Assembly (NCBI GenBank): GCA_016987375.1 | Contig: PJRA01000263.1 | Location: 2,830,409 to 2,894,408, forward strand | Source: Brachionus koreanus | Taxonomy: Eukaryota; Rotifera; Eurotatoria; Ploima; Brachionidae | Direction of reading: 5' to 3' | DNA: 64,000 nucleotides | Part shown: positions 58,980 through 64,000 of the stretch, in pieces | Position numbering within the stretch: the first letter of the stretch is position 1 | How the letters are laid out: each line of letters starts with the position of its first letter | The notes under the pieces: model-generated | Database searches by the model: none | What the model saw: the letters and a program-made list of their open reading frames with translations, nothing else | Told to the model about the DNA's origin: nothing | Made by a program: the position numbers and the translations under genes

Positions 58980-61900
58980 ATGGCAAAACTTGAAATTTTT
59001 TGTAAGAGTTGTGATATAAAATTGGCGGATAATACAATTGTCACATTTTATCAACAATCAATGAATAAATCAATTCATCTCATTATCAAACCTGAATGCA
59101 TTAACAACACACTTCAGTGTTTCACTATTAGGGAACAAGCTGAAAAAAAAAAGAAGAAATTTGCTCCAGAAGAAATTTTTTGTAAAAGATGCGATATAAA
59201 AATTGGAACAAATGCAAATATTGGTCCTGATGATAGTCCAGTTTTATGCTTCAGAGCTGAATCAATTTATTTCATTGAATCTTATCTAAATTTTAAAAAA
59301 AAATCCGATTTTAACTTTCAATCAAAATGGATCAATTTAAAGAACAATTTTCAGATTCTTGAATTCAGAAATTATTCGACATTTAATGGCATTGCAGATT
59401 TAAACAATGAGAAACGAAACAATTTTTCTCAAGTTGTTTTACCAAATGAAAATGATCTGAATGACTTCAATATTAGTCATTACATAGCAGATATTCCGAG
59501 AAAGTATCAAACGGAATTGTTTGTAAAGGCAGCGTTGCGCAATTCAATTGTTTATTTGCCTACTGGTTCTGGAAAAACAATGGTAGCCGCAATGGTTATA
59601 TCTTTTTTTAAAAGGCTAAATCCTAAAAAGAAAATTTTTTTCGTAACAGATCGAGTTCCTTTAGTTTTTCAGCAGGCATCATATTTAAGATACCAATGTG
59701 ACTTGTCTGTTGGAGAGTTTTGTGGTGAAAACAAGATTTATTTTGAAAGTCAATTGGATTGTGATATTTATGTCCTAACTGCTGGCTTTTTGATAAATAT
59801 GCTTTTACTGAAAAAGCTCTATCTAGAAGATTGTTCTTTTGTTGTAATTGATGAAATACACAATGCTAGAAAAGAAAGTAATTTTTTCAATATAATAGAC
59901 AAATTTTATCATAACATTGAATCAAAATACAAGCCACGCTTTCTTGGATGTAATTTTAGCTTTTCATTTTCAATTAAAATTTTGTTAATTTTTCTAATTT
60001 AGTAACAGCATCTCCAACTGCTAGTGCCCAAAAATTGACTGAAATGGTGCAAGAAATAAATCGTCTAAGTGAGCTGATTGGTGGTACGATCATCATGCCC
60101 GAACTTTATCGTGATGATTTCGAAAATTTTGTCAATAGACCTGCTTTTAATTATTATACTGCTAAGCAACATCCTAGTGAGGAAATCCTACGTGATGAAA
60201 TAAATCAATTTTTAGTGCCATTTATGAAACAATTGAATGCATCAATTGATTTTAATTCCTCTATAAATATTAAGAATAATGCTTTGAGAAGCTATCTTCG
60301 CAATGTTGCTAAAGATTTTAATATCCAGGCCAATTTTAAACAACTTCAAATAATCAACTTTTTGCAGATGATTTTAAGTGCATATGAAATAATGCAAGTT
60401 TTCGGCACAAAAAGAGCTGTTGATTTTTTGAGAGAAAAAATTGAATTAGAATTTGAAAAAAGTAAAAAAAATCGCATTTGGTCTCAGACAGATAAAATAT
60501 GTATGGAAAATTTTTGTAAGAAAATTTCAAATTTAGAAGGAGATTCGGCTAAATTGTCTATTCTTGACAATTTACTCACAAAAACTACTGAACAAAGCCC
60601 CGAATCGAGAATACTCATATTTGTTCGATCGCGGAAGACTGCCAGATTACTAAACGATCATTTAAATGAGAATGCTGAAATTCGTAAATTTTGGAAGCCT
60701 AAATATTGCGTTGGACAGGCTAGTGGAGGCTTAGATGGCATGACATGGAATGAAGATCAAGAGCCGATAATAGAAAGCTTCAATCAAGGTCAATGTAAAT
60801 TGCTGGTAGCAACCAGTGTCCTTCAGGAAGGCATTGATGTTCAAATTTGTAATATAGTTATCATATTTGACACATTGTGGAATTTGACCCAATTTGTTCA
60901 GAGTCGCGGCAGGGCCCGGCATCAGCATTCTCAATTTATAATCATTGATTCTCCTGATCATCAACAAAATTATGAAAAGCTAATTGAGTCTGAACGAGTT
61001 TTGATAAAATTAATCAGAAGTTTACCTCAAGAAAACATGCATTCAGTTAATAGTTTAGTTATTAGACAAGTAGATTTAGTTGAAAAAACACCTAAGGTGA
61101 CCCGTATGGTTAAGCTATGCAATGGCAATAATCGAAAATTTCGTTTTACTCTTCAGGTTTATTTAATAAGCGGTCAATTTGAAGATTTGTTAAGTTCTTT
61201 GAAGCAATGCAAGGGATTTTTGCAGTTTGAAGCGGCTGATGATGCATTCATAGGTGTCAATCTGTTTGATAAATTTGAATGTTACAATGTTTTATTTGAA
61301 ATTAATAAAGGAAAAAAACAAGCTGAAGAAATGTGGAGTGTTCTTAATAACATTAGATATATACTTTCTTCAGAATTAATTGAATGTATAATATACAATT
61401 TTAAATCGGTTTCTAATCTAACATCATCAAATTTTCAATGCTTATGCGAGAGCATAGAATTTGGTAATTTAAGTGCACCAAATGTATTTTATACTCATTC
61501 AAAATTAGGAAAATCAAAATTGATAATTGACTTTCAACTAAGAACAATTAAAATTTTGACTTTTATCAGTTCAAAACTGCACAAGCTGGAGTTTCAATTT
61601 GATGCCATTGACCATTTGATTAGTTTTGATTGCATGGAAGAACAGGTTTACATCTATTTTCCATTCAAACAAGCTCCATTTGTTTTCATTGACAGCCAAC
61701 TCTCTGATTACAAAGAAGAACATTTGAAAAATCTAGACATAGATTATTTGCCATGGGAGCGAACTTGTAACAACTTTGACAAGTTGTCTCTTAAAATGGA
61801 ATTTTCAAATAAGGATAAAAACTATTTAATTGAAGCATTAAAAAATTTAAAAGGAAACAACCTATTCTTCACAAATGTAAAAATTAGACACCCAACCTAT

Positions 61901-64000
61901 TCGATTGCAGATTTCAGGCAGGATTTTGAGCATAAAAATTTCAATACCCGTTATTTTTTAGAAGTTTTTATAAGTCAAAATTATTATCTTTTAGAAGGAA
62001 AGATAGATCGAAATTTTACCGCAAAACTAAACAAGTTGTCTTCCTTCGAAGTTGAAAAAACCCTAGAATTTTTAAGTAATAATTTAAGAACAAAGCGTTA
62101 TTTGAATATGGATAGTTTGCTTGAGGAAATAATCCAAAAAAGATCAAAATTTTCCAAATCTCCAAATCTTTATGATACTAATTTGAAAATATCGCTATTT
62201 AGACGAGCTACAATAACTCCAACCAGAATAATTTTCTTTTTTCCTGAACCGAATTTGTCTAATCGGGTCACACGTCAATTTGGAGAGGATAATTTTATCA
62301 GAATTCGTTTCAGAGACGAAGACTTGCGCAAATTAAATCTGTTCTCCAAAAATTCAGACATGAATAATATTTACTTAAGAATCGAGAGATTTTTGAATAA
62401 AGGCTTGAATCTATTCAACAGAAAGTATGACTTTTTGGCCATGAGTTCAAGTCAACTGAGAGAACACGGTTGTTGGTTGTTCAATAGTACATATATAAAT
62501 CCAGATAGTGTAAGATCCTGGATGGGAGACTTCAGTGACATTCGATGTATTGGCAAATACGCCGCAAGGCTTGGACAAAGCTTGTCAAGCTCAGTGGAAA
62601 CTTTTGAGTCTAACAAATTTTCTATGATTGATGACATAACTGTTGGAGATTATTGCTTCACTGACGGTATTGGAAAAATTTCAATTACTAAAGCAGAAGA
62701 AATAGGCACCGAGTTTTTTAGTAGAAAAAATCTAGTAAGTGCGTTTCAAATTCGTTTCGGTGGCTTCAAGGGTGTCGTGGCTGTAGATCCAAATCTTAAA
62801 AATAATGAGCTACTATTTAGGAAGAGTATGAGAAAATTTGACAGTGGCTATAATCGATTGGATGTAATCAATGTGGCTGATTATATACCTTGTTTTTTAA
62901 ATAGACAAATAATTATAATTTTATCTGCGCTAGGAATTGAGGACTCAGTTTTCGACTCTTTACAGAATGAAATGCTTAAATCACTTAGTAATTTGCTTAT
63001 AGATAAAATGACTGCTTCTTTAAGTATTATGAAGTACTATCGGCCTATTTTCTCTGACTACAAACATTCTGAAAAGCTTAACTATTGTCTTGAGCCATTT
63101 TTTAGGGATTTACTGAGGATCATTTATCAAAAAAGCCTCTTAGGACTCAAAAAAAAATCTCGAATTTTTGTTCAAAAAGGGAGAATTTTGATGGGCACCA
63201 TAGATGAAACAGGCAAATTAAAACATGATGAAGTATTTGTTCAATGCTCTAAACAACCTGGCGAGTCGTATGACAAATCAGAAGTTTTGGATTCAAAATA
63301 TGGAAATATTATAATAAACAAGAAAGTGGTAGTTGCCAAAAATCCATGCATGCATCCGGGAGATGTCCGAGTTCTCAGAGCTGTTGATCTGCCAGAACTC
63401 AGACATATGGTAGATTGTGTAGTATTTCCATCTGTTGGACCTCGACCCATTACAAACATGTGTTCTGGATCGGATTTAGATGGAGATTTATATTTTGTTT
63501 CATGGGAACCGAGGCTAATTCCAGATTTTGTCGACGAGCCAATGAATTATATTTCGCCAAAAGCAACAGAAAAGAATTCTCCAATTCAAATAGAAGACAT
63601 AATTAAGTTCTTTGTTAATTTTATTGAAATGGATCAGCTTGGACGAATTGCCAATGCTCATGTTGCTATATCGGACCAAAGCAAACTAGGCGTTAGAGAC
63701 CCACTGTGTATTAGACTTGCTGAAGCGTTTAGTCTAGCTGTTGATTTTCCCAAAACTGGAATTGTAGTTAGTCTTCCTGGCGAAATCAAAAATTTAAAGT
63801 ACCCTGATTTTATGGAAAAATATGGTCATTCGTACACTTCAGAGAAAATAATAGGAAAACTTTATCGAAAATGCAAGAAAATTTTTATCAATGACATGTT
63901 CAGTGATAGAATTGAGGTTAACAATTCATTTTTGGTCAATGGATATGAAAAATATGTTCCACAAGCTAAAGAAATTTATGCAAAATACAGAATCGAAATT
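58980..64000 (+). CDS. RIG-I-like zinc domain + Dicer/RIG-I-class helicase + RNA-dependent RNA polymerase, single protein (3' end beyond window)
   Basis: Exons are 58980-59949 and 60003-64000, with a 53-base intron and open frame to the window edge, giving at least 1656 aa. Residues 1-125 have two similar zinc knuckles (FCKSCDIK at 8-11 and FCKRCDIK at 68-71) followed by RAESIYFIES and SKWINLKNNFQIL. Their spacing and order resemble the C-terminal RNA-end-binding domain of RIG-I-like receptors. Residues 180-660 are a DExD/H helicase of the Dicer/RIG-I group: LPTGSGKT (Lys199), DEIH (291-294, where relatives have DECH), GLTASPT across the intron, LVATSVLQEGIDV, and QSRGRARH from 623. Residues about 1100-1656 are a cellular RdRP: RFGGFKGVVAVDP (1241), LMGTIDETG (1387), AKNPCMHPGDVRVL (1436), the catalytic DLDGD (1481-1485), and the DQLGRIANAH and AVDFPKTG motifs. 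The middle (about 680-1100) is unassigned. Likely role: making secondary small-RNA precursors from dsRNA or aberrant RNA in RNA interference. All metal-binding aspartates are present. The start could be an ATG slightly downstream, but none is better placed. Confidence 0.93.

Follow-up and report, generated by a model that had tools for sequence, protein, structure and literature searches.

All three Rrp proteins of Dictyostelium are described as a helicase plus an RNA-dependent RNA polymerase (RdRP) (PMC3661229). Helicase–RdRP fusions in animals have been published for Hydra and Nematostella, and the helicases of such fusions form one clade apart from Dicer (PMC4791657). In C. elegans, the RdRP complex consists of EGO-1 or RRF-1 with DRH-3 and the Tudor protein EKL-1 (PMC6351104). 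We analysed a 64,000-nucleotide stretch of the rotifer Brachionus koreanus (the window; C1:2830409-2894408, where C1 is contig PJRA01000263.1, of an AT-rich genome of 83.3 Mb). An initial annotation had placed at its end a gene joining a RIG-I-like sensor domain, a helicase and an RdRP, and had likened it to Dictyostelium RdRPs with an N-terminal helicase and to DRH-3 acting in a complex with RRF-1/EGO-1. We found that the rotifer gene is a real, intact-looking member of the known helicase–RdRP family. We judge it fairly likely that it encodes a single-chain RdRP complex feeding small-RNA silencing.

A sensor-fold domain, a helicase and an RdRP in one predicted chain

Joining exons 1 and 2 in phase gave 1656 codons without a stop, with the frame open at the window end (Table 1). 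The continuous frame with one 53-base phase-matched intron that had been proposed was borne out by comparison with relatives: at the predicted splice point all four that we compared (P0004, P0007, P0011 and P0013) are uninterrupted, the window protein reading FLG/LTASP (slash at the splice point) and P0004 ILGMTASP. The best named relative is P0004, a 2495-aa protein of Brachionus calyciflorus that is 62% identical with 100% of the query covered and whose first residue aligns with the start methionine of the window protein. The predicted spliced frame thus carries, in this order, a domain modelled to have the fold of the C-terminal domain (CTD) of RIG-I-like receptors (RLRs), a complete helicase of the type that acts on duplex RNA and a complete RdRP. 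The same modules occur in one chain in relatives, in keeping with the claimed single chain.

The extent first given to the gene, 58980..64000, holds a real gene but is too short: it leaves out 764 codons that follow the window end, and in relatives this region holds a TUTase-fold domain. The full protein would have 2420 aa if the 1124 nt directly after the window hold no intron. In the genome sequence used, these 1124 nt (L003:6010-7133) are given as N, as is L004:1-2752. They can encode at most 375 aa, compared with 430 aa in P0004; after them the frame resumes in phase for 389 aa, matching P0004 to its C-terminus (55%) and P0003 (74%).

Table 1 Features of the fusion gene, in window coordinates
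Feature	Position	Strand	Remarks
Exon 1	58980..59949	+	323 codons plus one base; open frame; start Met aligns with start of P0004
N-terminal zinc-type domain, RLR CTD fold	58980..59375	+	residues 1-132
First CxxC (residues 8-11)	59001..59012	+	C8 in 37/37 and C11 in 36/36 ungapped rows of 47; C in 3/3 RLRs shown
His33, common to RLR CTDs	59076..59078	+	H in 43/45 ungapped rows of 47; 3/3 RLRs shown
Second CxxC (residues 68-71)	59181..59192	+	both positions C in 46/46 ungapped rows of 47
DRA-type (Dicer/RIG-I-like) helicase	59493..61042	+	residues about 172-670, intron-interrupted; DEAD/ResIII/Helicase_C; PDB matches; tree
Helicase motif I TGSGKT (residue 195)	59562..59579	+	motif intact
Helicase motif II DEIH (residue 291)	59850..59861	+	motif intact
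Intron, predicted	59950..60002	+	53 nt, GT...AG; four relatives continuous across site
Exon 2	60003..64000	+	open at window end; frame runs on in genome to stop at C1:2896703
Helicase motif III TASP (residue 325)	60005..60016	+	motif intact
Helicase motif VI QSRGRAR (residue 623)	60899..60919	+	motif intact
Eukaryotic RdRP domain, PF05183 positions 1-582	62213..63874	+	582 bits, E 1.9e-174, whole profile
RdRP catalytic motif DLDGD (residues 1481-1485)	63473..63487	+	motif intact

As the initial annotation had read from the sequence, the DRH-type helicase motifs and the DLDGD of the polymerase are all intact. By full-length PF05183 domain and DxDGD motif, the polymerase is a eukaryotic RdRP; PDB chains named RNA-dependent RNA polymerase 2, presumably of plant origin, match it with a best E of 1.7e-120. 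The helicase region matches DEAD (3.1e-14) and Helicase_C (1.6e-19) in Pfam, and a PDB sequence search placed Dicer, MDA5, RIG-I and Dicer-related helicase (DRH) as its closest solved relatives.

We built helicase trees from 49 rows hand-picked out of 110 extracted helicases; P0203, P0204 and P0161 were dropped for a 46-row tree, and the quick 49-row tree gave the same grouping. In the 46-row tree, 24 fused rows including the window protein lay on one side of a branch with support of 94/96, just under the tool's star, and within it three starred sets, of 2, 3 and 7 fused rows, contained the window. Six RLR rows formed a separate branch without the window (97/93), as did 14 Dicers (82/66). We therefore rejected a Dicer origin of the helicase, and its separation from Dicer agrees with the published clade (PMC4791657). 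The tree has no outgroup of known place and so leaves both Dicers and RLRs as candidate sisters of the fused rows. With helicase and RdRP in one chain and its helicase among the fused rows, the protein belongs to the helicase–RdRP fusion family. The protein is not an RLR: its CTD-fold domain precedes the helicase, and the helicase lies outside the RLR branch.

The N-terminal domain is modelled as an RLR CTD fold

Structure comparison suggests that residues 1-132 adopt the RLR CTD fold, with zinc cysteine pairs, and this places the domain with the RLR CTDs. Among the 50 Foldseek matches listed for it, 48 were RLR/DRH entries and two were Mis18; all 50 VIA matches listed for the N-terminal domain were RLR/DRH entries. 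His33 and W117 are common to RLR CTDs. Conservation was read from an alignment of 47 N-terminal domains, 15 of which built the profile used in our searches. The claim of a RIG-I-like sensor domain therefore stands for the fold but not for the sequence family, PF11648 (RIG-I_C-RD) reaching 15.0 bits in single-sequence Pfam, below its curated cut-off of 25.6. The initial annotation had also made this claim depend on a profile match of the first 130 residues to RLR CTDs; the profile of 15 N-termini had no significant match among PDB sequences but did match three of the five RLR proteins in the database set, and structure comparison matched RLR/DRH.

A family across distant eukaryotes

To place the gene we used a set of 328 proteins, namely 327 database proteins among the matches listed plus the window protein; E-values are for the set of 327, and all family counts refer to the matches listed. 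A helicase match with a GxDxDGD motif was present in 90/328, and 76 of these 90 had the helicase start with more than 30 aa before it. The N-terminal domain was found in 71 of the 76 (E <1e-4; 15 of these had gone into the profile). The rotifer gene is therefore typical of a widespread family. All four modules (CTD fold, helicase, RdRP and TUTase fold) occur in 60 filtered proteins. Organisms named for these 71 carriers include Acropora, Nematostella (P0220), Dendronephthya, the glass sponge Oopsacas, Artemia, Physocladia, Phytophthora, Pythium, Cavenderia and Pelomyxa. Sensor-fold carriers thus span amoebae, oomycetes, a chytrid, animals and apparently a streptophyte alga (P0225, labelled Mesen1, which we take to be Mesotaenium), and in many of them the TUTase fold lies behind the RdRP. 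The five misses are P0038 (Ostreobium), P0144, P0149, P0160 and P0138; three are dictyostelid, with a weak match or none, and P0138 carries Dicer domains. The motif filter excludes some apparent members, such as P0033, P0139 and the Phlyctochytrium protein P0228, which has the N-terminal domain. A count with a looser motif (42/51) was set aside, as four of the nine proteins lacking the domain there were Dicers that contain DxDGD by chance.

PF11648 and PF22600 annotation was already precomputed in the database on some family proteins. Our literature search, covering little subscription literature, met no description of the combined four-module architecture, and an earlier one may exist. The novelty first claimed for an animal gene with sensor, helicase and RdRP falls away, given the published fusions in Hydra and Nematostella (PMC4791657) and the N-terminal domain in 71/76 filtered proteins.

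Relatives carry the Cid1/TUTase-fold domain after the RdRP, in the region lying beyond the window in the rotifer gene. Its catalytic acids are lost in the closest rotifer-type proteins and a coral protein (C-terminal regions of P0003, P0004, P0005, P0006, P0008 and P0030), whereas the oomycete proteins, several from amoebae and some others keep them. Judged by these residues, the nucleotidyltransferase of the closest rotifer-type proteins looks catalytically dead.

Other silencing and sensing genes of the genome

Exon-wise genome searches, whose counts are of matches rather than genes, gave one Dicer_dimer match and 13 Piwi-domain matches on 6 contigs. A separate RLR-like gene (L006, C1:1768140-1771436; frame 1474-3297, minus strand) has the helicase followed by a C-terminal RIG-I_C-RD at C1:1769640-1769936 (29.2 bits, over the cut-off), and groups with the RLRs in the helicase tree, where its branch is long. 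A second RdRP (L004:3423-5765, on C12; 272.8 bits for the RdRP domain) is very divergent, with a branch length of about 6 in the RdRP tree, and there was no helicase match within its 780-aa frame. Upstream of the fusion gene, a SNF2-family helicase frame (SNF2-rel_dom 2.8e-72), presumably ERCC6-like, lies at window 54255-56501 (+).

Proposed function and alternatives

In the function that we propose, the CTD fold and the helicase would bind duplex RNA or its end, and the helicase would translocate, passing a strand to the RdRP, which would copy it into double-stranded RNA (dsRNA). The Dicer and Argonautes of the genome could then use this dsRNA to silence viral or transposon RNA through small RNAs. 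Where relatives keep an intact triad, their nucleotidyltransferase might add a tail to the 3' end of either the template or the product; the apparently dead one of the closest rotifer-type proteins may be structural.

Two alternatives concern the parts of the chain. It is hardly credible that the gene model has merged two adjacent genes: the intron is predicted from sequence rather than observed in cDNA, but the exon 2 frame is unbroken across helicase and RdRP, P0004 is one predicted protein matching over the whole query, and the 60 four-module proteins are likewise single predicted chains. We rejected the two-gene reading on this continuity of the relatives. It is also quite improbable that the N-terminal domain, rather than being an RNA-binding RLR CTD, plays a structural part as a generic beta-tent zinc domain like those of Yippee and Mis18. 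Several results do weigh against a sensor. Yippee-Mis18 slightly outscores RIG-I_C-RD on the window domain in single-sequence Pfam, also below cut-off, and at E <=1 it matches 11/15 members (best 1.5e-6) against 8/15 for RIG-I_C-RD (best 5.8e-5). The profile of 15 N-termini found nothing significant among PDB sequences (best E 0.06, splicing factor YJU2; Dicer-related helicase CTD 0.32) and did not match two of the five RLR proteins in the database set (P0194 and P0201). Moreover, loop residues 84-85 of the window protein are acidic (DD), so 5'-triphosphate binding should not be assumed. The structural matches and the shared His33 and W117 nevertheless argue for the RLR fold. The relative P0123 passes the PF11648 cut-off at 27.6 bits. 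CTD-profile matches below 1e-2 outside the filtered family were eight apparent missed or partial members (seven with an RdRP Pfam domain, one named 'rrf1, partial') and three RLR C-termini, in a 328-protein set that was drawn from helicase/RdRP searches and holds few other proteins to match.

The same chain might instead sense viral or aberrant RNA and make dsRNA for the RLR-like helicase of the genome or another innate pathway, its job not being amplification of RNA interference (RNAi). We consider this unlikely. It would fit the canonical-order RLR-like gene over the PF11648 cut-off, and Nematostella responds to poly(I:C) with a rise in RdRP1-3 (PMC8476169). Nematostella, which has the family member P0220, showed no secondary small interfering RNAs after dsRNA (PMC12768352), and amphioxus RdRPs have been speculated to act outside RNAi (PMC6396948); both reports count against amplification. 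On the other hand, Dicer and Argonaute matches are kept in the genome, and the title of PMC3661229 links 5' spreading of Dictyostelium small RNAs to RrpC. For the rotifer gene, we infer a role in small-RNA silencing.

The presence of the same chain in distant eukaryotes is a hint that the sensor part predates the animal virus sensors in which it is known. More tentatively, and with considerable doubt, the four-module chain may be an ancestral eukaryotic single-chain RdRP complex. The RIG-I-type RNA-end sensor would then have arisen there, in silencing amplification, before animal virus receptors, and nematode DRH-3, RRF-1/EGO-1 and CDE-1 would be the same machine on separate proteins. In a quick RdRP tree of 30 hand-picked rows, the 24 fused RdRPs did not group as a single clade, five plant RDR1-type rows falling among them at unresolved positions, so the RdRP part does not show a single fusion origin. 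Should the sensor domain bind RNA in the manner of RIG-I, a single molecule would both recognise and copy RNA, and where the RIG-I sensor came from could be tested outside animals (for example in dictyostelids) or in Nematostella.

Comparison with known systems

The rotifer protein shares with RIG-I-like receptors (RIG-I, MDA5, LGP2 and DRH-1) the CTD fold, the zinc cysteine, histidine and tryptophan positions and a DRA helicase; it differs in its reversed order, with the CTD fold N-terminal, in its helicase outside the RLR branch and in its fused RdRP. The Hrr1 helicase of S. pombe is of the SF1 class. In the S. pombe complex RDRC (Rdp1, Hrr1 and Cid12), a helicase, an RdRP and a predicted poly(A) polymerase act together, as the modules here may, but Hrr1 is the ZNFX-1 orthologue and belongs to another helicase family (PMC9276528). 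The C. elegans complex likewise has an RLR-type helicase working with an RdRP, and the poly(U) polymerase CDE-1 is in the same pathway; there, however, the parts are on separate proteins and the CTD is C-terminal in DRH-3 (title of PDB 6m6s). The name 'fused DRH-3/RRF-1' is best taken as an analogy of parts, not as established orthology. Closest are the helicase–RdRP fusions of Dictyostelium (RrpA-C), Phytophthora, Hydra and Nematostella, which like the rotifer protein have an N-terminal helicase and an RdRP (PMC4791657, PMC3661229). The main text of PMC4791657 contains none of the words zinc, RIG-I and nucleotidyltransferase; what our analysis adds to the published family is the RIG-I-type sensor fold at the N-terminus and the TUTase-fold domain behind the RdRP, both recognised across the family.
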